Shown piece after piece: positions 21,094 to 31,359 of a stretch of DNA of 35,950 nucleotides. The position numbers were made by a program, and so were the translations under genes. Location of the stretch: positions 1-35,950 of the forward strand of contig JASJBX010000008.1 of the NCBI GenBank assembly GCA_030066295.1, read 5' to 3'. Source of the DNA: Crocosphaera sp. GTDB taxonomy: Bacteria > Cyanobacteriota > Cyanobacteriia > Cyanobacteriales > Microcystaceae. Under the pieces are notes generated by a model. That model was not told the origin of the DNA. It ran no database searches and was given only the letters and a program-made list of their open reading frames with translations. Every line of letters starts with the position of its first letter. Position 1 is the first letter of the stretch.

Positions 21094-21123
21094 CCCCATC
21101 TAAATCACAGATTATAGATGGGG
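21094..21123. repeat. IS605-type end hairpin next to the tnpB stop
   Basis: CCCCATCTA pairs with TAGATGGGG around a 12-base loop. The tnpB stop (TGA) lies inside it at 21105-21107, so this is the right-end hairpin and the probable 3' part of the guide (omega) RNA. Confidence 0.8.
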
Positions 21124-22541
21124 TACAGCTTGCACCCAGAAAGTTTTAGACTTCTGAGTGTCTCCAGGGTTACTGGTGTCCGCAGTGTATTTGTAGAACT
21201 TTGGCTAACAAATACCCTAGAGAAATACTTATCACCAATTAAGACAGAATACCAATATCTTGCTCCGATATTATATGAGGCTCCTAAATCAGCATTATAT
21301 TGTTTACCAGACGGAAAAGTACACAAAGAATAATTGTTTTTACTGCGTTTTACTTTCCCACTGCCATCAAAAGCATAAGCACTGGTATATTTAGGGTTAA
21401 TTGTTTGCACATCTCCCCCTAATTCTGCCCATCGGTCACTTAAAATCTCTACAATTTTTTGATGACACCATAAATGAAACTTTTGTCTCATTAAAGTGCC
21501 TTTTTTTCCTGCCTTAGCTTTCCATCCTGCTAAGTTTTCGATGACGATTACTTTGACATTATGAAGTTTAGCAAACTCAATAATTTCTCTCGAAATATAC
21601 CGAGAAATTTCTAAATTAATGTTACTTGATTTCCGATAAAGTCCTCGACAAAAGCCTTTAACAAACTTTTCTCCTGTCTTTCTATGAGTCTGTTTTGACT
21701 TTTTAGTAATCATCATCTTACGTTTATTTCGACGGTCTATGTCTCTAGCCGGATTGATAAATTTCCGAGCCTTTACAGTACCGTTCCGTCCGACAATCGA
21801 ACAGGTAGCAGCATTATTAATGCCTAAATCTACGGAACAAACATAATCTGAATCCTCCTTTTTTATCGGTTTAATTTTCACTGGCATTGAAAGCTGACAA
21901 GTCTTAGAATTAACCACTAAAGCTGGTGATTTCATTTGGTTCCCTATCACTTTATGTCGATTAAGTCCATGACCTTTAACTGTAATTTCTTCTAACCAAA
22001 CCCAATCAAAACCATTCCAAACTTTGAGAGAAACTTTTTGATAATCATCATTATATTTTACTTGTTGACCTTTATATAAGGCGGGATAAGATTGACACAT
22101 AGCTGTTAAGCGAGGCGGTCTAACTTTTCTATTTTTTCTTATCCCTGATTGCCACTCTCTGTAACGAGTTTGAAAACTAGAAACAATACCAATAGCATCG
22201 GCGATAGCTGCTCTTCTTAAATAACTAGGAAACTTGCGAAACGATGGATATTTATTAATAACTTTTTGACAATATGAATATTTAGGAATTGTATTTTTGC
22301 TAGTTGCATGAATAGATTTTTCTAGATAATTGACTTTCTCTTTATCGGTTAAATTCCCAATTAACTTCCATTCAGCATTAACAATAAAAACTAAAGGTTT
22401 TAGGAATCTTCTATATTCTTTTACTGTCAACAATAATAACGTTTTCTCTATAGATGTTACCTGGAGTTTCCAGACATCCGTACGGATCATGGAGTCCGAT
22501 TTTCTCTTTTTAGTTTTACGTTTGGTTTTAGACCTACCCAT
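21105..22541 (-). CDS. tnpB: TnpB, RNA-guided nuclease/transposon-associated protein
   Basis: A 478-residue OrfB/TnpB protein. It has the three RuvC acids: Asp in SVDLGINNAAT (about residue 240), Glu in VIVIENLAGWK (about 332-342) and Asp in YNADLGASYNIGARY (about 425). TnpB is a programmable DNA nuclease guided by a noncoding RNA from the element's right end and helps the element persist. The usual C-terminal zinc ribbon (CxxC...CxxC) is not formed here: after NPKYTSAYAF the first Cys pair is absent and only one Cys (SLCTF) remains. The gene overlaps the end hairpin. Confidence 0.88.
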   Translation of the reverse strand: MGRSKTKRKTKKRKSDSMIRTDVWKLQVTSIEKTLLLLTVKEYRRFLKPLVFIVNAEWKLIGNLTDKEKVNYLEKSIHATSKNTIPKYSYCQKVINKYPSFRKFPSYLRRAAIADAIGIVSSFQTRYREWQSGIRKNRKVRPPRLTAMCQSYPALYKGQQVKYNDDYQKVSLKVWNGFDWVWLEEITVKGHGLNRHKVIGNQMKSPALVVNSKTCQLSMPVKIKPIKKEDSDYVCSVDLGINNAATCSIVGRNGTVKARKFINPARDIDRRNKRKMMITKKSKQTHRKTGEKFVKGFCRGLYRKSSNINLEISRYISREIIEFAKLHNVKVIVIENLAGWKAKAGKKGTLMRQKFHLWCHQKIVEILSDRWAELGGDVQTINPKYTSAYAFDGSGKVKRSKNNYSLCTFPSGKQYNADLGASYNIGARYWYSVLIGDKYFSRVFVSQSSTNTLRTPVTLETLRSLKLSGCKLYPIYNL

Positions 22542-22866: not shown

Positions 22867-22896
22867 CCCCATCTAAATTAAAAATTTTAGATGGGG
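22867..22896. repeat. IS605-type end hairpin, distal end
   Basis: CCCCATCTAAA pairs with TTTAGATGGGG around a short A/T loop. It shares the stem of the hairpin at 21094-21123. A start codon here is possible in the dehydrogenase frame (22891) but is part of the hairpin and unlikely to be used. Confidence 0.8.
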
Positions 22897-22986
22897 ACTG
22901 CGCGAAACGATTTTGTTCAATCAAAAAATCTACAACACCACCATCAAACGAATGGTAAAATTGAGGCAGTTAGTCATGAATTTCTA

Positions 22987-23865
22987 ATGAATATTGAAAA
23001 AGTATTAATTCTTGGTTTAAATGGTGGATTTGGTCAATTATTCTCAAATTTGCTTTCAGAAGAAGCCATGACGATCTATGGTATTGACTTAGCCTCACAA
23101 CCAGATAGCTTAACTAGCTGTTCAAATTATCTGTGCTGCGATCTTAATCAACCTAACAAGCAGGCATTTGCCTTAGCTAGAGAGGTTGATTTATTGCTTA
23201 TCTGTCTTCCTGAAAGTGTAGCCTTTAGTGCATTAGAACATTTTGTTCCAGTCATACCTACGAATGGACTTGTGGTGGACACTTTATCAGTCAAAACTCC
23301 AATAGAAGAAAAAATGGCAAATTTTAGGCTAGATGTACAAATACTGAGTATTAATCCTATGTTTGCTCCAGACCTGGGATTTTGTCAAAATAACGTTACT
23401 GCTATAGACTTACAGCCTGGTTTGCGCTCTGCTAATTTTATTAATCTGATGAGAAAATGGGGGGCTAATGTGACGATCATGACTGCAAGTGAACATGATC
23501 GCTACACTGCTATAACCCAAGTTTTGACCCACGCGGCTATTATTGCTTTTGGACTTTGTTTAACAAAGCTTGATGTTGAAACCGACAAATTATTATCGGT
23601 TTCAACACCAGTGCATCGAACAATGCTTAAACTCTTAGCTCGTATTACGAGCCAACACCCTGACATTTACTGGAGAATTCAGTTAGATAATCCATACGGG
23701 AAACAGATGCGAGAAGCATTACTCAACAGTTTGAAGCAATTAGACTTACTAGCTGATGTCAAGGCTCAACAAGAATTTTGTCGCATACTATCTACTAATC
23801 AAGAAACGCTTTCACCATTTTTAGATGAATTAGTGACTGATTTCTCAGATTTATTCAAATCTTGA
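22987..23865 (+). CDS. Prephenate dehydrogenase homologue, likely PapC-type
   Basis: The protein (292 residues from the ATG at 22987) has a Rossmann fold (VLILGLNGGFGQLFSNLL), an NAD-binding acidic end (IYGIDLA), and TyrA-like motifs such as VVDTLSVKTP and the His-containing SINPMFAPDLG. An ITQVLTHA segment replaces the usual ITH.L helix. In the 4-aminophenylalanine route, PapC oxidatively decarboxylates 4-amino-4-deoxyprephenate. In primary metabolism TyrA acts on prephenate. I favour PapC because of its neighbours, while similarity alone cannot exclude TyrA. I reject a longer start at 22891 because it lies in the IS hairpin. The gene converges with the mutase, and their 3' ends overlap by 67 bp. 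Confidence 0.75.
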   Translation: MNIEKVLILGLNGGFGQLFSNLLSEEAMTIYGIDLASQPDSLTSCSNYLCCDLNQPNKQAFALAREVDLLLICLPESVAFSALEHFVPVIPTNGLVVDTLSVKTPIEEKMANFRLDVQILSINPMFAPDLGFCQNNVTAIDLQPGLRSANFINLMRKWGANVTIMTASEHDRYTAITQVLTHAAIIAFGLCLTKLDVETDKLLSVSTPVHRTMLKLLARITSQHPDIYWRIQLDNPYGKQMREALLNSLKQLDLLADVKAQQEFCRILSTNQETLSPFLDELVTDFSDLFKS

Positions 23866-24131
23866 AATAGCTGGTCTTCAATCTGACAAGTTTCAAAAAT
23901 GATGCGCTCATAAAGTTCATAGAAGAAGTTTGGATTAATTCCATATTTTTCTCCAAGCCTTGCACATCTTTCTTGTACGGCTTTGACTCGCGCTGGTTGC
24001 ATTACTGGTATTCCCATCTTTTTTTTATATATTGCTACTTGTTTACAAATAGCGAAACGTCGAACTAATACTTGAACGAGTGTTTCGTCAAGACGATCAA
24101 TCTCCTGTCTATAATCTTTGAGATCCTTCAT
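23799..24131 (-). CDS. Chorismate-mutase-family protein, likely PapB-type
   Basis: A 110-residue AroQ-type helical protein with Arg8, Arg25 and Lys36 of the usual active site (E. coli Arg11, Arg28, Lys39). At the positions of E. coli Asp48 and Glu52 it has Gln45 and Val49, in MQPARV, where ordinary chorismate mutases read D-x-x-R-E. Such changes suit a substrate other than chorismate. In the 4-aminophenylalanine pathway PapB rearranges 4-amino-4-deoxychorismate. ATG start with GGAG nine bases upstream. It is the last gene of the minus-strand operon and overlaps papC at its end. An isochorismate-pyruvate lyase is a less likely alternative. Confidence 0.75.
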   Translation of the reverse strand: MKDLKDYRQEIDRLDETLVQVLVRRFAICKQVAIYKKKMGIPVMQPARVKAVQERCARLGEKYGINPNFFYELYERIIFETCQIEDQLFQDLNKSEKSVTNSSKNGESVS

Positions 24132-24165
24132 GAGCTTTTATCTCCAGTATCAATGAATATTATTA

Positions 24166-25272
24166 CTAAATTGACGGTATTTTAGTTGTGTGTTTTGAGT
24201 ACATTCTTTGAAGAGTTGCTGTTAAGTTTGGTTTTTGTAACTCTCGTCCAAAAAAGTTGGAAATCGTAGACATTTCCTCTACTAATCGTTTAAACCGCTC
24301 CAAGGTTAGTGATTGAGGTCCGTCAGATAAAGCTTTAGCTGGATTAGGATGAACCTCAATCATTAAGGAATCTACTCCAGCTGCGATCGCAGCCATAGCC
24401 ATAGCAGGAACATACTCAGCCTTACCAGTCCCATGACTAGGATCGACCATAATTGGTAAATGAGTTAAAGAGCGCAATACTGGCACAGCACTTAGATCTA
24501 GTGTATTTCTTGTATATTGTCTGTCAAAGGTGCGAATTCCTCGCTCACATAGAATCACGTTAGGATTTCCTGCTGCCAAAACATACTCAGCAGCCATAAG
24601 TAAATCTTCTATGGTTGCGGACATACCTCGTTTTAGCAACACTGCTTTTTTTTGAGATCCTACTCGTTTTAGAAGAGAAAAGTTTTGCATATTGCGAGCA
24701 CCGATTTGAAGAATATCAGCGACTTCAACAACTTTCTCAACATCTTCTGTATCCATCACTTCAGTCACAATACCTAAACCGGTAGCCTGACGAGCAGACG
24801 CTAACCAATCTAAAGCACTCTCCCCATATCCTTGGAAGCTATAAGGAGAAGTACGAGGCTTATAGGCACCACCTCGTAAAAACTGGACTCCCATGTTCTT
24901 AAGATGTTTTGCTGTTTCGACAATCATTTCCTCGCTTTCGACCGAACACGGTCCAGCGATTAGATGTAAAGGACAATGATGACCAAAAACAGCAACTCCA
25001 TTTCCTGTCGATACTATTACTTCACTCGATTTTCCATTGCGGAATTCTATGCTAGCCCGTTTAAAAGGATGAGTGATTCGCTTAACCCTTTCAATAAAAG
25101 GACTAATTTGGTAAATTTGTGAAGGTTCAACCAATGCCGTATCACCAATCAGGCCAAAGACGACTTTAGAGGAGCCTACACTTTTTTCTGGTCTTAAATT
25201 TCGCTTGTGAAATTCTTCGTTTATTCGCTGAATTTCTTGCTCTGGTGTTCCAGATTTTAAAACGATAATCAT
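24166..25272 (-). CDS. 3-deoxy-7-phosphoheptulonate (DAHP) synthase, class I-beta
   Basis: Condenses PEP and erythrose-4-phosphate as the entry step of the shikimate pathway. The 368-residue protein has an N-terminal ferredoxin-like (FL) domain (about residues 1-70) and a TIM-barrel with LIAGPCSVESEEM (about 106-118), GGAYKPRTSPYSFQG (about 136-150), ARNMQNF, LLKRGM and VDPSHGTGKAEYV. The FL domain is the allosteric module of I-beta enzymes, so feedback by an aromatic end product is possible. A pathway-local copy increases precursor supply for the cluster. It lies 34 bp before the mutase gene on the same strand and 80 bp after the methyltransferase. Confidence 0.92.
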   Translation of the reverse strand: MIIVLKSGTPEQEIQRINEEFHKRNLRPEKSVGSSKVVFGLIGDTALVEPSQIYQISPFIERVKRITHPFKRASIEFRNGKSSEVIVSTGNGVAVFGHHCPLHLIAGPCSVESEEMIVETAKHLKNMGVQFLRGGAYKPRTSPYSFQGYGESALDWLASARQATGLGIVTEVMDTEDVEKVVEVADILQIGARNMQNFSLLKRVGSQKKAVLLKRGMSATIEDLLMAAEYVLAAGNPNVILCERGIRTFDRQYTRNTLDLSAVPVLRSLTHLPIMVDPSHGTGKAEYVPAMAMAAIAAGVDSLMIEVHPNPAKALSDGPQSLTLERFKRLVEEMSTISNFFGRELQKPNLTATLQRMYSKHTTKIPSI

Positions 25273-25352
25273 GGTTCAGTTCCTTGTTCTATTGAAATTA
25301 AAAAGAAAGATGTATTGACTATGGTCAAATATTTGATGTCGGTTATGCTTAT

Positions 25353-26177
25353 TTAAGGTTTTTCCCCATAAGCCATTAGCCATAGTAACAAGACCAAAGA
25401 GTCTGGCATCGACAAAAACTCATGGTTAGCACGGAGATAGTTTTGCATTTCTTCTTCCGTTGCCCAACCTTTTTTGACAACTGATGAAAAAAGTTCAGGA
25501 TCGATTACTTGTGTAAATATTTCCATTCCTTGATCGTCACTATGAGAAACAATAATCTCCAACTCGGGATTTTGGAAACCAGCATCTCTAAGAATGCGCC
25601 ATAATTGTCTTCCTATACGTCGGTTACCGTTGCGCGTAGCCATCCCTCGGCGCATTTTTTCTGACATCATCTGGTACTCTGGGAGTGGAGGTTCATGAAT
25701 AAAAAAGATTTCATCATCATGATCAGTAATGACAAGTTTGCCACCAGGTTTGAGAACTCGTCGAATTTCCTTAGCAGCATCAACTGGATTAGGAATATGT
25801 TGAAAAATTAAGCGTGCAATCGCAAAATCAAAGCTGTTATCAGGCAAACCGGTATCAAAGATAGAGGCTGTCGATACTGTCAGTCTGTTACCTAGATAAT
25901 TATCTAGACGTTGTTGGCAATAATTAATCAAAACTGGATCAATATCCAGAGCCGTTATCGAACTGTTAGGGAATAAAGACAGAAGCTTCTCGGTAATAAA
26001 TCCAGGTCCGCTTCCTAATTCAAGAACAGACATTCCATCTTGTAAACCAAACCAACGTAGGTTCCGTGACTCCTGTTTCCACATGATTTCCGCTTGCAAA
26101 TATAAACGCTTAATTTCACGCTCTAAGTTACTATTAAAATCATTGGCCTCATAAGAAACTGTACTGGTGATAGTCAT
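25353..26177 (-). CDS. SAM-dependent methyltransferase, class I
   Basis: The protein (274 residues from the ATG at 26177, with AGGAG six bases upstream) has the SAM motif VLELGSGPGFITEKLL (about residues 52-67), an acidic end to strand 2 (ALDIDP), motif-III-like SFDFAIARLIFQHI and the post-motif VLKPGGKLVITD. An upstream TTG gives two more residues and is unlikely. The substrate is not evident. In this cluster an N-methyl (as PapM on 4-aminophenylalanine), O-methyl (hydroxylamine or carboxylate) or ring methyl are all possible. The gene is separated from the N-oxygenase by 116 bp containing a strong hairpin. Confidence 0.85.
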   Translation of the reverse strand: MTITSTVSYEANDFNSNLEREIKRLYLQAEIMWKQESRNLRWFGLQDGMSVLELGSGPGFITEKLLSLFPNSSITALDIDPVLINYCQQRLDNYLGNRLTVSTASIFDTGLPDNSFDFAIARLIFQHIPNPVDAAKEIRRVLKPGGKLVITDHDDEIFFIHEPPLPEYQMMSEKMRRGMATRNGNRRIGRQLWRILRDAGFQNPELEIIVSHSDDQGMEIFTQVIDPELFSSVVKKGWATEEEMQNYLRANHEFLSMPDSLVLLLWLMAYGEKP

Positions 26178-26256
26178 GATCAACTCCTGAATTTTTAAAC
26201 TAAACTAAACTGGAAAATTTTTTCCTTAATGTCACCTATTCATTAACTAATTATCT

Positions 26257-26287
26257 GGCTGAAACGCATTTAAAATGCGTTTCAGCC
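26257..26287. terminator. Strong intergenic palindrome after the N-oxygenase gene
   Basis: A perfect 13-bp stem (GGCTGAAACGCAT at 26257-26269 and its complement at 26275-26287) with a 5-base loop starts 7 bp past the stop of the minus-strand N-oxygenase gene. It has no T-tract, so it is more likely an mRNA 3' stabiliser/attenuator than a simple terminator. Confidence 0.55.
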
Positions 26288-26293
26288 TATCCC

Positions 26294-27244
26294 TTATACA
26301 AGAAATCCGTAATCTTCAAAAGCTTTCTTGACAGAAGAAATTGAAAACAAACCAGACTCTTTAAACATTTTCAGTGCAGGTTGAGCTGCCCGTTTTGTAG
26401 TCTGTGTAATTTTTTCGGGAACATAAATTTCTTGTAAAATACCCTCAGAATTGACCGCCGAAAAACCTAAATTCTGAAGAACATTACGAGCAGCAATCTG
26501 ATTAGGTTCAAGAAAAGTTCGCATCAATCTTGGCAAAAATTGACCCATTTTTTCTTGTTCTAGATTGCTGAGACTATTCCAAAGTAAAGGAAATAGACTG
26601 AAAAAGTAAGTATAATGTTTAGCCTCATCAGCAATATGATCCCCAATAACAGTACGGACAGCTGGTGCTATTCTTTGATCTTGAGGAATTGAGCTATAAG
26701 CTCTTACGTACAATGTTTCAATGACATTAGTTAGAAACAGCTTAATCAAGTTAGGTGAAAGAGAATCTTCAGCATCAAGAAGTTTTTGGAAATTTAACTC
26801 AAACTGGGGCTGTCCCAAGACGCTATGACTTAGTCCACAATAGTTTTCTACTTGTTGTAAAAACCATTTCATAAAAAGAGAATGGCCTCCTTCATCGCAA
26901 TAAATTTTTAGAAGATCAAATCTTTGTTCTTCGGTTAACTTAATAATTGTTTTTCCTTGAAATAAATCGCTACAAACAGGATTAACATAATTGAGTTCAA
27001 CCAAAGAGGTAAACTGAAGATGTTCGAGAAGTCTATAGGCTAGGGCAGCCTCATAAAGGGCGGGATCTTTCGAGATTTCTGGGTGTGAAGCTAGTGGAGT
27101 TAACTCGGGACTAAAAAGTAATCCAGAAAAAGATAACTCCCGTAGTGGTTTACTTCGAATCCAACTTGATTTATCCCAGTTTTTAAAAGGACTGTCATAG
27201 GTTTTCTGAGATGTAGAAGTCACTGAGTTAGCCATGAAATTCAT
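26294..27244 (-). CDS. AurF-family diiron N-oxygenase
   Basis: Predicted to oxidise an arylamine to hydroxylamine, nitroso and nitro forms, as AurF does for 4-aminobenzoate and CmlI does in chloramphenicol. The 316-residue protein has all seven metal ligands at positions that track AurF with constant offsets: Glu83, Glu118 and His121 (DEGGH), Glu176 (NVIETLYV), His203, Glu207 and His210 (HIADEAKH). The spacing is the same as in AurF (Glu101, Glu136, His139, Glu196, His223, Glu227, His230). ATG start with AAGGAG seven bases upstream. The substrate is unknown, but the neighbouring 4-amino-aromatic pathway makes a para-amino compound the natural candidate. Confidence 0.87.
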   Translation of the reverse strand: MNFMANSVTSTSQKTYDSPFKNWDKSSWIRSKPLRELSFSGLLFSPELTPLASHPEISKDPALYEAALAYRLLEHLQFTSLVELNYVNPVCSDLFQGKTIIKLTEEQRFDLLKIYCDEGGHSLFMKWFLQQVENYCGLSHSVLGQPQFELNFQKLLDAEDSLSPNLIKLFLTNVIETLYVRAYSSIPQDQRIAPAVRTVIGDHIADEAKHYTYFFSLFPLLWNSLSNLEQEKMGQFLPRLMRTFLEPNQIAARNVLQNLGFSAVNSEGILQEIYVPEKITQTTKRAAQPALKMFKESGLFSISSVKKAFEDYGFLV

Positions 27245-27360
27245 GTTAAGTCTCCTTATTAACTATCAAGATACTAAGTAGATAAATCGAAATTATCTAA
27301 ACAAAAATTGAGAGATTTTACAGAGAATCCTAAGGCTTCAAACCTTATTTGTATTGCTAT

Positions 27361-27430
27361 TAGACATCTCCAAGAACGAAACTAAAATTCTTGTAAAATA
27401 AGAACTAAATTTAATTTTTAGAGATGTCTA
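27361..27430. repeat. 70-bp element with perfect 10-bp terminal inverted repeats (MITE-like)
   Basis: TAGACATCTC at 27361-27370 is mirrored by GAGATGTCTA at 27421-27430, and the outermost bases are TA on both sides. Inside is an AT-rich core with a small CAAGAA/TTCTTG stem. It lies between the N-oxygenase and the ADC synthase, both minus strand. The TA at both ends fits a Tc1/IS630-type insertion, but an attenuator is also possible. Confidence 0.45.
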
Positions 27431-27453
27431 TTTGTGATATTTATTGTTGACAA

Positions 27454-29610
27454 CTATTTAACTTTCTCTTTAACTTTAACGGCAGGTTTAACTTGTAGAG
27501 CGTCAACAATATGATAGAGATCAGGGTTAACCTCTCCATGAACTGTGAGTAAAATAGCGCGAATTAAAGCCTGTGCCTTCAGCAGTATTTCATCAAATTC
27601 CATCTGAGGATCAGATAGAGCAACAATGGCTCCTCCTACGCCGATAGTCGTTTCAGTTGGAGTCATTACAATTGTGCGGATTACAATGTTCAAATCGGCT
27701 GCACCATTGAGTCCTAGAAACCCAATTGCCCCCGAGTAAATACCCCGTGCCTCTCCTTCAAGTTTGTCAATAATTTCCATCGTTCTCAGTTTGGGAGCAC
27801 CTGTCATTGAGCCACCAGGGAACGCCATGCGGATACAGTCAATCGCTCTCATATCTTGACGAAGGCGACCGCAAATAGTGCTGACTAATTGATGTACGGT
27901 GGCATACGTTTCGACATTCATTAATTTCGGGACATCAACGCTACCTATTTCACAGACTGGTCCTAAATCATTTCGCAGCAGATCAACAATCATTAAGTTC
28001 TCAGCGCGATCTTTCTCTCCATTTTTTAAGCTTTCTTGAATTTCTCTATCTGCTTGAGCATTTACTCCTCGTGCTTTTGTTCCTTTAATTGGTTTGGATT
28101 CAACATAATTATGGCGATCAATTTTGAGAAAACGCTCTGGAGAGGAACTAAGCACCACGAAATCTTTAAATCGGAAAAATGCTGAGTAAGGTGCTGGATT
28201 AGTTTGGCGTAATGTTCGATAAAGTGTTACAGGATCGGGTTGACTATCGGTAGAAATCTTATTCGTTAAACAGACTTCATAACTTTCTCCTTGAGAAATT
28301 TCGTAGAGACAATTTTGGATATCATCTAAGTATGTTTCATAGGAGCGACTAAAGCGAAAAGTGACAGGTTTCTGACTCTTTTTCGGAGTAGGTGGTTGTA
28401 AAGGAGGTAATGTAGACAGTTGTTTTTCTACTGTTTGGAACCAAGCCTCAGCCTCCCCTTTTTGCCCCTTTTTCGTTAGACACAACAAATAAGTTGTCTG
28501 TTCTTGGTGATCGAATACAATTAAGCGATCGGCTAAAATAAAGCTAGCATCAGGCAACGATGAAGGATTCTTCAATGTGCTTCCACATTCTGCCTTGAGT
28601 TCATAACCGAAGTAACCAGCAAAACCACAATTAAAGTCAAAAGGGAGATCATCACAACGATAGTTAAGCAGCTCAATTTCTCGCTTGAGATAGTCAAATA
28701 TACTCTCCTTGTACACATTCAACTGGTTCCCTTGGGTCACAGATACCTCTTGAGTCCGAACATCATATTGAACTAAGCGACTGTTTACACCGCTACCGTC
28801 TCCCATAAAAGAGAAACGGGAAAGACTTGGATCAGCCAAACTGCTGTCGAGCCAGAAAGCAAGGGACTCGTCTTTAAATAGATGAACAAATACTTGTTCC
28901 GTATCTGGATAAATATTTAGTTGACGACTATGAACTTCATAACTTTGATTATGGAATTGATGAAGATGACCGCTGGGAACAATAGATAATTTTTGACCTA
29001 TCGTATTTTGACCTCTCTTTTTTTGGGGAGAATATTGTTTAGTAATATCCCTGAAGTTTTCTAGCAACGTATATCCATACTCGGTACTAATCGATTCAGG
29101 GTGGAACTGCACACCCCAAATCGGTCTGGAGCGATGACGTAATCCCATAATAATTCCATTTTGTGTCCAAGCAGTTGCTTCTAGACTTTCAGGTAGTGCG
29201 GGAGAAACCACCAACGAATGATACCGAACAACAGAGAAGTCTTGAGGAATCCCTGCAAATAGTTTGGATTCGTTATGATAAACTCTACTTAAGCGTCCAT
29301 GCATGACTTCAGGAGCATAGCTAACCTTGCCTCCAAAGATATGACCAATTCCTTGATGACCTAGGCAGACACCTAGCAAGGGAACATCTATTTCTTCAAT
29401 AACTTTTTGACAAATTCCAAAATCTTTTGGATTTTCCGGACGACCTGGACCTGGGGAAATTACGACATTATCAAATGATAAAGCTTGTAGTTCAGACCAG
29501 GTTAATTGATCATTGCGTATGACAATTGGAGGTTCTCCATTCACCTGTGCAATCATTTGATACAGATTGAAAGTGTAAGAATCGTAGTTATCGATTAGTA
29601 AAGTTTTCAT
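27454..29610 (-). CDS. Aminodeoxychorismate synthase, PabA-PabB fusion (PapA-type)
   Basis: The amidotransferase half (about residues 1-190) has Cys82 in GVCLGHQ, then His170 and Glu172 in QFHPES. The chorismate-binding half (about 215-690) contains PIKGT at 507-511, where Lys509 marks PabB-type aminodeoxychorismate synthases; anthranilate synthases have PIAGT. The product is 4-amino-4-deoxychorismate. A lyase would take this to 4-aminobenzoate, but the cluster instead has a mutase and dehydrogenase. I chose the ATG giving MKTLLIDNYDSYTFN, the normal PabA beginning, over a TTG 24 bp upstream. No pabC-like lyase is visible, so diversion to 4-aminophenylalanine is expected. 54 bp separate it from the ammonia-lyase. 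Confidence 0.92.
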   Translation of the reverse strand: MKTLLIDNYDSYTFNLYQMIAQVNGEPPIVIRNDQLTWSELQALSFDNVVISPGPGRPENPKDFGICQKVIEEIDVPLLGVCLGHQGIGHIFGGKVSYAPEVMHGRLSRVYHNESKLFAGIPQDFSVVRYHSLVVSPALPESLEATAWTQNGIIMGLRHRSRPIWGVQFHPESISTEYGYTLLENFRDITKQYSPQKKRGQNTIGQKLSIVPSGHLHQFHNQSYEVHSRQLNIYPDTEQVFVHLFKDESLAFWLDSSLADPSLSRFSFMGDGSGVNSRLVQYDVRTQEVSVTQGNQLNVYKESIFDYLKREIELLNYRCDDLPFDFNCGFAGYFGYELKAECGSTLKNPSSLPDASFILADRLIVFDHQEQTTYLLCLTKKGQKGEAEAWFQTVEKQLSTLPPLQPPTPKKSQKPVTFRFSRSYETYLDDIQNCLYEISQGESYEVCLTNKISTDSQPDPVTLYRTLRQTNPAPYSAFFRFKDFVVLSSSPERFLKIDRHNYVESKPIKGTKARGVNAQADREIQESLKNGEKDRAENLMIVDLLRNDLGPVCEIGSVDVPKLMNVETYATVHQLVSTICGRLRQDMRAIDCIRMAFPGGSMTGAPKLRTMEIIDKLEGEARGIYSGAIGFLGLNGAADLNIVIRTIVMTPTETTIGVGGAIVALSDPQMEFDEILLKAQALIRAILLTVHGEVNPDLYHIVDALQVKPAVKVKEKVK

Positions 29611-29664
29611 CGTTAATACCATCTCAAAAATCAACGGATAATTAAATTCAGTCAGTTTCAGTGA

Positions 29665-31359
29665 TTAATAAAGATTGCTAACTGCTTGCCAGAGGCGATT
29701 ACTACTCTTTAAGTCAGTTGCAATTTGAGCTATGTGTTCATCAATAGCTTGCTCATCATCATTCCAAATATAGGGACGTTCTGAAGAAGGCTCCTTGCCA
29801 ATGACCTCGTGGATCTCTAGATATAGCTTTAACGTTTCTGGGGAAAGGCTTTGACGAGCGTCATAATGACCCATTAAGGCATAAGTACGTAGGTCAACCG
29901 CTTGTACACCAAAGAGTAACGCGATCGCTATGTACTGCTGAAAAATTTCTATTGAGCGGTTGGCTAAAAGAGCAGAAATACACCCTTGACTGTTGATATT
30001 TTGATTAAATTGTTCAGCATGGGTAGGAAAGCGATCAGCCAGGCTATTTCCATAAAAAGTTAGCAATGGCATGATTGAGTTTCCAGTCAATTGCAATGAC
30101 TTTAATCCTAAATTGACCAAACGTTTAGGATTCCCAACCAATGATGCCGGAAGTCCCTCGTTAAATTCTGGGGTGACTAGAAGTGCAATTTGTGTATCTA
30201 AATGTTTAGCTAAAAGACCGAGATAGTACCTTAGTTGATCCATCCCTAGAGCAACATATTGTCCAAGAAAATTCCCTCCGTGATAAGAAGCTTGATTTTC
30301 AACATCAATTAAAGGGTTATCAGTTGCAGAGTTCATCTCAATCTCAATTTGTTTTGCAATCTGCAAAATTCCGTCAAAAATAGGCCCTATATACTGTGGT
30401 AAACAACGCAGAGAATAGCGATCTTGAATTAAGTTATTACTTCGATAGTCATGAGAACCATTCAATTCATCACGAATTAATTGTGATCCTCTGAGTAACT
30501 TTAACATCTGGTTAGCTGCCCATTTTTGTCCATCATGGGGTTTTAACTGATGAATGAAAGGATGAAATGATTGATTGGTCCCACTCAAACCTTGAATCAT
30601 TAAGGCGTGTGCTGCCATGGTTAAAGTTAATAAAATTTTAGCGTCGTACACACAATTCGCAGCAACGCCAGTCATGATCGAAGTCCCGTTCATCATGGCT
30701 AAGCCTTCTTTCGGTAACAATGTCACTGGCTCTAAACCAAGATATTTTAAAGCCTGCGGAGCTTCCATTGCTTCTCCGTTGAAGTCAACCATATAACAAG
30801 GCTCTGTCATCCCAATTAATGCGCCTGTTATATAAGACAATGGAACTAAATCACCGCTAGCACCAATAGAGCCAAATTCATAGACATAGGGTGTAACCCC
30901 TGCATTCAGAAAAGTCAAAAGGCGTTGAATAATTTCAACTCGTATGCCAGATGCTCCGTGCATATGTGAATTGGCACGCAACAGCATTGCTGCTCTTATA
31001 CAAGCATTGGGTAAGCGTTGTCCTGCGGCAACCCTATGGTATCTAATCAGATTATTCTGTAAAGCAGTAGCCTCTTCAGGTGGAATGATAACATCAGCCA
31101 TACCCCCAAAGGCGGTCGTGACTCCATAAATTGGCTGGCCTAATTTTACACAATCAGCAATAAAGTCACTGGATGCTTGAATACTTTGCAAAATCTCTTC
31201 TTGTTCAGTTAAGCGGACTTTTGTCCCATAACGTGCAACACTAATAACTTCGTCAATTGTTAAATTACAGTTTCCTACAATTAGCTGTTTATGATGATTT
31301 TTGACAGATTGTTGCCAATCGTTTTCCTGTGATTTGTCAATGTTAGTAACTTGTACCAT
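29665..31359 (-). CDS. MIO-type aromatic amino acid ammonia-lyase, substrate altered
   Basis: The 564-residue protein aligns gaplessly by sight with Anabaena variabilis PAL, including the MIO-forming Ala-Ser-Gly at 167-169 (SIGASGDLVPLSY) and the catalytic Tyr78 (PIYGVTTAFGG). The two residues that set substrate choice in PAL, Phe107-Leu108, are Tyr107-His108 here (NLIRYHRV). Standard PAL would make cinnamate, but the swap suggests a different ring, probably 4-aminophenylalanine given the neighbours. An aminomutase is possible, because the same family includes those. It is the first gene of the minus-strand operon, next to the A-tract repeats. Confidence 0.88.
   Translation of the reverse strand: MVQVTNIDKSQENDWQQSVKNHHKQLIVGNCNLTIDEVISVARYGTKVRLTEQEEILQSIQASSDFIADCVKLGQPIYGVTTAFGGMADVIIPPEEATALQNNLIRYHRVAAGQRLPNACIRAAMLLRANSHMHGASGIRVEIIQRLLTFLNAGVTPYVYEFGSIGASGDLVPLSYITGALIGMTEPCYMVDFNGEAMEAPQALKYLGLEPVTLLPKEGLAMMNGTSIMTGVAANCVYDAKILLTLTMAAHALMIQGLSGTNQSFHPFIHQLKPHDGQKWAANQMLKLLRGSQLIRDELNGSHDYRSNNLIQDRYSLRCLPQYIGPIFDGILQIAKQIEIEMNSATDNPLIDVENQASYHGGNFLGQYVALGMDQLRYYLGLLAKHLDTQIALLVTPEFNEGLPASLVGNPKRLVNLGLKSLQLTGNSIMPLLTFYGNSLADRFPTHAEQFNQNINSQGCISALLANRSIEIFQQYIAIALLFGVQAVDLRTYALMGHYDARQSLSPETLKLYLEIHEVIGKEPSSERPYIWNDDEQAIDEHIAQIATDLKSSNRLWQAVSNLY

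Follow-up and report, generated by a model that had tools for sequence, protein, structure and literature searches.

In this study, we analysed a 35,950-nucleotide stretch of DNA from the cyanobacterium Crocosphaera sp. (contig JASJBX010000008.1, positions 1 to 35,950; hereafter the window), which carries at positions 22987–31359 a block of seven genes predicted to lead from chorismate to an aminocinnamate-type product. The block encodes an aromatic ammonia-lyase of the 4-methylideneimidazole-5-one (MIO) type, a fused aminodeoxychorismate synthase, an AurF-like protein, a methyltransferase, a 3-deoxy-d-arabino-heptulosonate 7-phosphate (DAHP) synthase and a mutase, in this order on the minus strand, and a dehydrogenase that is convergent on the plus strand. 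All seven open frames are intact and each matches its expected Pfam family above the curated cut-off (Table 1). The same seven genes had been named in a preliminary description of this DNA, together with the PIKGT motif of the synthase and seven AurF-type metal ligands, and all of these features are present. The likely start of the dehydrogenase is the second in-frame methionine (MNIEK), and the frame shares 67 bases at its 3′ end with the mutase gene; a convergent overlap is also found in the Symploca locus described below.

Table 1. Genes of the seven-gene block, their positions in the window and the matches on which each assignment is based
Predicted product	Coordinates	Strand	Matches
MIO aromatic ammonia-lyase, AvPAL-like, pair Tyr107-His108	29665..31359	-	PF00221 Lyase_aromatic 500.8 bits; PDB 2nyn 837 bits
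Fused PabA-PabB-type aminodeoxychorismate synthase	27454..29634	-	Pfam GATase, Anth_synt_I_N and Chorismate_bind; PDB 8hx6
AurF/CmlI-type ferritin-like diiron N-oxygenase (predicted)	26294..27244	-	PF11583 AurF, 72.6 bits (cut-off 29.6), E 4e-20
Class I S-adenosylmethionine-dependent methyltransferase (predicted)	25353..26183	-	Pfam Methyltransf_31/11; best PDB 3mgg 'Methyltransferase', E 2e-19
DAHP synthase with ferredoxin-like domain	24166..25272	-	DAHP_synth_1; PRK13396 622.9 bits
PapB-type chorismate-mutase-family protein	23799..24131	-	CM_2; TIGR01803 CM-like 74.4 bits, barely above cut-off 73.35
PapC-type dehydrogenase	22891..23865 (longest frame), likely start 22987	+	PDH_N and PDH_C

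All seven genes recur, in identical order and on the same strands, in Symploca sp. SIO3C6 (contig JAAHHJ010000006.1), a locus that was found by scanning named genomes with the lyase as query. Protein identities between the two loci range from 72 to 85%, the lyase being 85% identical. For every one of the seven genes the ratio of nonsynonymous to synonymous substitution rates (dN/dS) is between 0.13 and 0.33, which indicates purifying selection, and since an identical block recurs under these dN/dS values, the co-occurrence of the seven genes goes beyond chance. The proportion of synonymous differences is 0.33–0.44 in the cluster, as compared with 0.76 and 0.80, which are saturated values, in two housekeeping genes (UbiB-like and RecN). 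In addition, the G+C content of the Symploca block is 37.8%, versus 43.7% for the 9 kb immediately to its left. Because order and strands are conserved while synonymous divergence is far below that of the housekeeping genes, we infer that the block was transferred between lineages as one unit and would thus constitute a mobile seven-gene biosynthetic cluster. The genes are patchily distributed: the lyase is present in one of nine genomes of the window's genus, namely the window's own, and the dehydrogenase in one of 20 genomes of Symploca's family, namely Symploca. Searches of 388 genomes, which are samples and not a census, gave mutase matches in 14 genomes of the order; apart from the window's own protein, the PapB-like ones were those of G583 (73% identity) and four others (43–47%). 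Within the class, the lyase was found in 7 of 388 genomes at E 1e-80 and an AurF-like protein in 6 of 388 at E 1e-5; all three counts include the window's own genome. At the other 79 loci of the lyase scan, for which DNA of up to 10 kb per side (less on short contigs) was covered, the lyase is accompanied only by DAHP synthases and by a few weak matches, with 24–32% identity to the dehydrogenase or the methyltransferase.

The mutase signature, an asparagine in the dehydrogenase and the PIKGT motif of the synthase make 4-aminophenylpyruvate and 4-aminophenylalanine well-supported predicted intermediates. The synthase carries the PIKGT lysine, a fused GATase domain and the amidotransferase motifs GVCLGHQ and FHPES, and its closest solved structure is 8hx6, '4-amino-4-deoxychorismate synthase' (677 bits; next best 221). 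PIKGT and a fused GATase domain are common to 4-aminobenzoate (PABA)-type synthases too, and the feature is not decisive alone. As the protein is 51% identical both to a Rhodococcus protein and to one in a PABA-like cluster of Streptomyces angustmyceticus, identity alone cannot separate PapA from a PABA-type synthase either. The mutase was aligned with 7 of the 20 matching plasmid records and with the full set of 14 matches found in the order, and has the residues Q48/V52/T84/E88 (E. coli numbering). Glutamine at position 48 together with valine or isoleucine at position 52 is found in all 13 proteins of the PapB group, the window and Symploca proteins included, whereas the PchB-like rows have Ala48 (9/9) and the ordinary mutases have Asp or Val48 with Glu52 (3/3). 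We take positions 48 and 52 to contact the C4 substituent of the substrate. Moreover, a synthase of this type lies in the stretch read beside 11 of the 13 mutases with the Q48-V/I52 signature, the exceptions being Variovorax and a short contig of G681. In the mutase tree, in which long branches meet among the ordinary mutases, 12 of the 13 PapB-type proteins fall into one group (support 96/92) and the S. meliloti protein falls outside. A function of the window protein as a PchB-like isochorismate-pyruvate lyase was ruled out on the basis of Gln48, as opposed to the Ala48 of all nine PchB-like proteins.

In the dehydrogenase, INPMF replaces LHPMF, so that an asparagine stands for the histidine that is catalytic in E. 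coli TyrA. This asparagine is found in all six PapC-type proteins (window, Symploca, Rhodococcus, S. xanthii, S. albogriseolus and S. meliloti), each of which adjoins a PapB-type mutase; the four besides those of the window and Symploca are plasmid-borne. Both E. coli TyrA and the other dehydrogenase of the genome retain the histidine. Bradyrhizobium and Agrobacterium neighbours, tried as PapC candidates, failed to align; they are not dehydrogenases, nor is a further frame from the genome, and all were set aside. Both the mutase and the dehydrogenase signature were derived in this analysis, and the residue changes that they comprise point to a 4-amino rather than a 4-hydroxy substrate. A mutase and dehydrogenase restricted to chorismate and prephenate, the case that would have overturned the preliminary description, therefore appear unlikely from these residues. 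Its reading of the three proteins as PapA, PapB and PapC is supported by the three signatures and by the chloramphenicol-type context of the Rhodococcus relatives, as far as sequences can tell. The lack of an aminotransferase gene in the block is no objection, since housekeeping aminotransferases suffice: work on dnacin is reported to have relied on E. coli's own aminotransferases and TyrB to complete 4-aminophenylalanine (PMC7570522), and completion by E. coli aminotransferases is likewise reported in PMC4863162. The first of these reports also supports the earlier proposal that a housekeeping enzyme transaminates 4-aminophenylpyruvate.

Relatives of the synthase and mutase were met in other settings as well. 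In G178 (L134 6044–11676) and G289 (L135 8060–13381), a non-ribosomal peptide synthetase is followed by a PIKGT-type synthase 62–63% identical to that of the window, a cupin and a PapB-type mutase. A class IV aminotransferase fused to an acetyltransferase domain is also encoded at both loci and a PapC-like match is absent there; in G178, a 198-aa protein without a Pfam or NCBIfam match lies between the synthase and the cupin. By resemblance, we take these loci to be possibly an amino version of the bacilysin/Choi-like branch. In G546 (L132 8185–12413), a PIKGT-type synthase (64%), a PapB-type mutase, a methyltransferase and a PhyH-type oxygenase are encoded consecutively, with no match to the dehydrogenase. 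Eight cyanobacteria of the order sample encode PchB-like small mutase-fold proteins with a KAPER-like motif and Ala48 (L136 8354–8659, L138 7312–7605 and L118–L123), and the neighbourhoods of L136 and L138, the two that were read, contain no synthase match.

The AurF-type ligands of the diiron protein (E83, E118, H121, E176, H203, E207 and H210) are shared by all nine proteins of the alignment, among them the CmlI-like protein of Rhodococcus, as are the second-sphere residues D117 and D206; the register to AurF was taken from the match of the nine-row profile. The ligand set equals that of aureothin AurF, although the sequences are remote. A set of three histidines and four carboxylates is reported to be largely unique to N-oxygenases, and related cyanobacterial halogenases are reported to swap the first aspartate for glutamine, giving QExxH (PMC12101540). 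As the window protein has DEGGH and keeps both second-sphere aspartates, a CylC-type dimetal halogenase was ruled out by this comparison. The assignment as an AurF-type N-oxygenase, which had been made in the preliminary description, is thus supported over that as a halogenase at the level of residues, although the protein is a remote relative of AurF. No match for the diiron protein was found in NCBIfam, and structure models built from two-row alignments have a mean predicted local distance difference test (pLDDT) score of 38.2 for this protein and 39.3 for the methyltransferase. In a scan of genome contigs with the diiron protein, none of the 56 pattern matches is a relative, though Symploca carries one at 72%; as this relative was overlooked, such scans evidently miss members. 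Three cyanobacteria share a conserved gene pair, in which an AurF-like diiron oxygenase is accompanied by a class I glutamine amidotransferase (L008 8088–10256, L009 2716–4520 and, on plasmid p057_A of Nostoc sp. C057, L099 9974–11866), the amidotransferases being 59–77% alike.

The lyase has the Ala-Ser-Gly motif from which MIO is formed (ASGDL) and a full-length family match; other than the Symploca protein, the relatives found in the scan share 51–73% identity with it. The altered selectivity pair that had been pointed out earlier is real, in that Tyr-His stands where the Anabaena lyase (2nyn) has Phe-Leu, the pair of phenylalanine ammonia-lyase proper. However, it is common, and the view that it is special in itself is not supported: in an alignment of 81 lyases, in which row L081 is without the pair region, 29 carry Tyr-His, window and Symploca included, and 32 carry Phe-Leu, and the pair by itself was therefore ruled out as the mark of a new activity. 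Tyr-His is also carried by the two AvPAL-like lyases that the set includes from Herpetosiphon aurantiacus (L054 and L058), and one lyase of this organism, the gene not being specified, is reported to be tyrosine-specific (PMC6390333). The pair thus seems compatible with a para-substituted ring capable of hydrogen bonding, 4-aminophenylalanine or tyrosine alike, and proves neither. In a tree of 59 of the 81 rows, the window and Symploca lyases form a clade of their own (support 100/100) on a stem of 0.46. This clade lies inside a 32-row group (98/90) that contains the lyases linked to DAHP synthases, and its separation from the other 30 rows has weak support (84/47). A changed substrate would fit the long stem, which does not prove it, and by analogy it is plausible that the lyase deaminates 4-aminophenylalanine or an N-oxidised form of it.

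Taking these findings together, we suggest, with a probability of roughly 60%, that the block is a mobile cluster that would convert 4-aminophenylalanine into 4-aminocinnamate, which would be N-oxidised and methylated. According to this pathway, the extra DAHP synthase would raise shikimate flux towards chorismate, the PIKGT synthase would convert chorismate into 4-amino-4-deoxychorismate, and the mutase would rearrange the latter to 4-amino-4-deoxyprephenate, from which the dehydrogenase would form 4-aminophenylpyruvate. After transamination to 4-amino-l-phenylalanine by a housekeeping aminotransferase, the MIO lyase would remove ammonia to give 4-aminocinnamate. Before or after the lyase step, the AurF-type enzyme would oxidise the aryl amine to a hydroxylamine, nitroso or nitro group, and the methyltransferase may then cap the product as an ester, N-methyl or O-methyl derivative. 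The evidence behind these steps differs: residue-level evidence speaks for the PapABC-type steps, analogy and co-transfer suggest the substrates of the lyase and the N-oxygenase, and it is the enzyme family that suggests a methylation. The overall interpretation given in the preliminary description is in this sense partly supported, and we infer the final product; use of 4-aminophenylalanine by the lyase, the order of lyase and N-oxygenase, the site of methylation and the azoxy coupling are plausible as proposed there. With regard to the last of these, AzoC is reported to yield nitroso compounds that couple to azoxy compounds (PMC6783550), and if the diiron enzyme likewise halted at the nitroso stage, an azoxy dimer could arise without further enzymes. 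We consider it rather unlikely that the product is such a methylated 4,4'-azoxy-dicinnamate, made by a natural, mobile and carrier-free route; if it were, it would be a light-responsive azoxyarene of cyanobacteria that is made without carrier proteins.

In favour of the proposed pathway, a synthase, mutase, dehydrogenase, DAHP synthase and diiron oxygenase also occur together on plasmid pCP209 of Rhodococcus qingshengii (L100 1–13202 and L104 5084–7501), where an AMP-binding protein, a metallo-β-lactamase (MBL)-fold protein and the chloramphenicol exporter CmrA join the PapABC-type set. By its predicted gene content this locus is a chloramphenicol-type cluster, the kind represented by the cml/pap genes of Streptomyces venezuelae, in which we take the AMP-binding protein to be CmlP-like and the MBL-fold protein to be CmlA-like. 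No aminotransferase is found among its annotated neighbours, as in the window block, which has the MIO lyase and the methyltransferase in place of the AMP-binding and MBL-fold proteins; the DAHP synthases of the two loci have no significant match to each other. Scanning of window proteins on either side of the PapABC genes gave no AMP-binding protein of the peptide synthetase kind and no CmlA-like protein, and visual inspection of the Symploca frames showed none either. We know of no lyase in the pathways of AurF (aureothin) or AzoC (azoxymycin). A second likeness is to the furanolide clusters (cyanobacterin cyb, nostoclide ncl and maculalactone mac; gene content of mac and cyb as reported in PMC13288894), in which a DAHP synthase likewise lies next to an AvPAL-like lyase, often with Tyr-His. 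The window block differs from these in having PapABC-type genes and a diiron oxygenase instead of a coenzyme A (CoA) ligase, a thiamine enzyme and a furanolide synthase/ketosynthase; at E 1e-5, neither the window nor the Symploca locus has a match to any of the latter three. The core logic of the block is closest to a man-made system: papABC followed by a phenylalanine ammonia-lyase is reported to yield 4-aminocinnamate in engineered bacteria, with neither an N-oxygenase nor a methyltransferase in the route as reported, and 4-aminocinnamic acid is there called non-natural (PMC4863162). Among the matches listed in the open-access literature, no described cluster has this combination, which is known in pieces or from engineered bacteria, and the block is a new combination of known enzyme families. 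If the proposed pathway is correct, it would be the natural counterpart of the engineered route to bio-based 4-aminocinnamic acid, extended by an N-oxygenase. It would also give cyanobacteria aryl amine or nitroarene natural products through a carrier-free route of seven genes, small enough for one or two plasmids. In addition, the analysis has yielded residue signatures by which amino-analogue shikimate enzymes can be told from ordinary ones.

Within this pathway the diiron enzyme could act first and oxidise 4-aminophenylalanine to 4-nitro-l-phenylalanine, which the lyase would then convert into 4-nitrocinnamate before methylation. The step sequence is fixed neither by gene order nor by a carrier protein, and MIO lyases are generally favoured by electron-poor rings. 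However, the Tyr-His pair, as found in both Herpetosiphon aurantiacus lyases, suggests a hydrogen-bonding amino or hydroxyl group on the substrate ring, in line with the tyrosine use reported for that organism (PMC6390333), and we regard the nitro-first order as unlikely, though worth keeping in mind.

Several points weigh against the proposed pathway as a whole. The complete block is known, from sampled searches, in two genomes only, at least one of which is a metagenome-assembled genome, and no carrier protein, ligase or transporter is encoded among the seven genes. With the diiron protein as a single-sequence query, neither CmlI nor AurF was matched in the PDB, and a five-row cyanobacterial profile, from which a sixth cyanobacterial row (G340) and three actinobacterial rows had been dropped, gave weak matches to 5hyg (E 1.8e-4) and AurF (E 0.006). 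The strong match to CmlI obtained with the nine-row profile is probably owing to the Rhodococcus homologue in that profile. The nearest relatives of the protein, in G225 (51%), on a plasmid of Nostoc sp. C057 (52%) and in G235 (41%), each adjoin a glutamine amidotransferase, and no PapABC genes lie beside them in the stretches read, so that the substrate of the diiron protein may not be an aryl amine. Of the seven genes, it also shows the lowest identity between window and Symploca (71.5%) and the highest dN (0.160). It is on these grounds conceivable, if again unlikely, that the diiron protein acts like its amidotransferase-paired cyanobacterial relatives rather than as an arylamine oxygenase, in which case the product would be a methylated 4-aminocinnamate derivative without N–O bonds at the ring amine. 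This is opposed by the occurrence of a diiron oxygenase in the parallel Rhodococcus cluster and by the conservation of the seven ligands and two second-sphere aspartates, a set reported to be largely unique to N-oxygenases (PMC12101540).

A further point on the same side is that tyrosine or phenylalanine might be the substrate of the lyase. The PapABC branch would then end in N-oxidised 4-aminophenylalanine or 4-aminophenylpyruvate, and the two branches would have to be joined by enzymes encoded outside the block. Many of the scanned lyases accompany a CoA ligase, a thiamine enzyme and a ketosynthase, which is the make-up of furanolide clusters, and among the ten loci with a DAHP synthase, a thiamine enzyme and a ketosynthase, eight lyases have Tyr-His and two Phe-Leu; the furanolide lyase CybB is reported to convert tyrosine to coumarate (PMC13288894). 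It has to be added to the points against the proposed pathway that the link between Tyr-His and furanolide-like loci is weaker than 8 of 10 implies: when every locus that combines a thiamine enzyme with a ketosynthase is counted, Tyr-His is found at 9 of 18, the others having Phe-Leu (7), His-Leu (1) or an unreadable pair (1). Two separate branches nevertheless seem quite unlikely to us, given that the three furanolide partner enzymes are unmatched at both loci and that a long stem sets the lyases of the window and Symploca apart as their own clade, as expected of a changed substrate.

The genome, which is 91% complete, also bears on the synthase. Its two other chorismate-binding proteins (L124 and L126) are one above the TrpE cut-off and one matching isochorismate synthase, and in the absence of a further PabB-type match, the synthase of the block may provide the folate precursor as well, which likewise counts against the proposed pathway. 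That the genes are mainly housekeeping ones, with the synthase serving folate and the mutase and dehydrogenase serving ordinary tyrosine synthesis, is very improbable, even though the block mutase is in addition the sole CM_2 match found in the genome: another PDH_C protein and a second DAHP synthase (G000:C93, 68% identical to the block copy) are present, eight congeners show neither the block mutase nor the lyase, and the residue signatures are unlike those of the ordinary mutases and dehydrogenases compared. The ordinary tyrosine pathway was rejected on these grounds. The DAHP synthase tree leaves the window copy unplaced, with weak support.

The flanking window proteins that were scanned are of other kinds, namely a pentapeptide-repeat protein, an aminoimidazole ribonucleotide (AIR) carboxylase, a sugar transferase, a ThiD-like kinase and a MacB-like permease. 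A TnpB-like frame of the IS200/IS605 kind lies at window positions 21105–22541, 349 bases from the dehydrogenase frame (81 bits, under the cut-off of 100). Finally, plasmid p1 of Streptomyces angustmyceticus (L098 3388–32063) encodes an AurF-like oxygenase, a methyltransferase, AsnB, an aminodeoxychorismate synthase, a class IV aminotransferase, a DAHP synthase and a type I polyketide synthase, a locus that looks like a 4-aminobenzoate-primed polyketide cluster.

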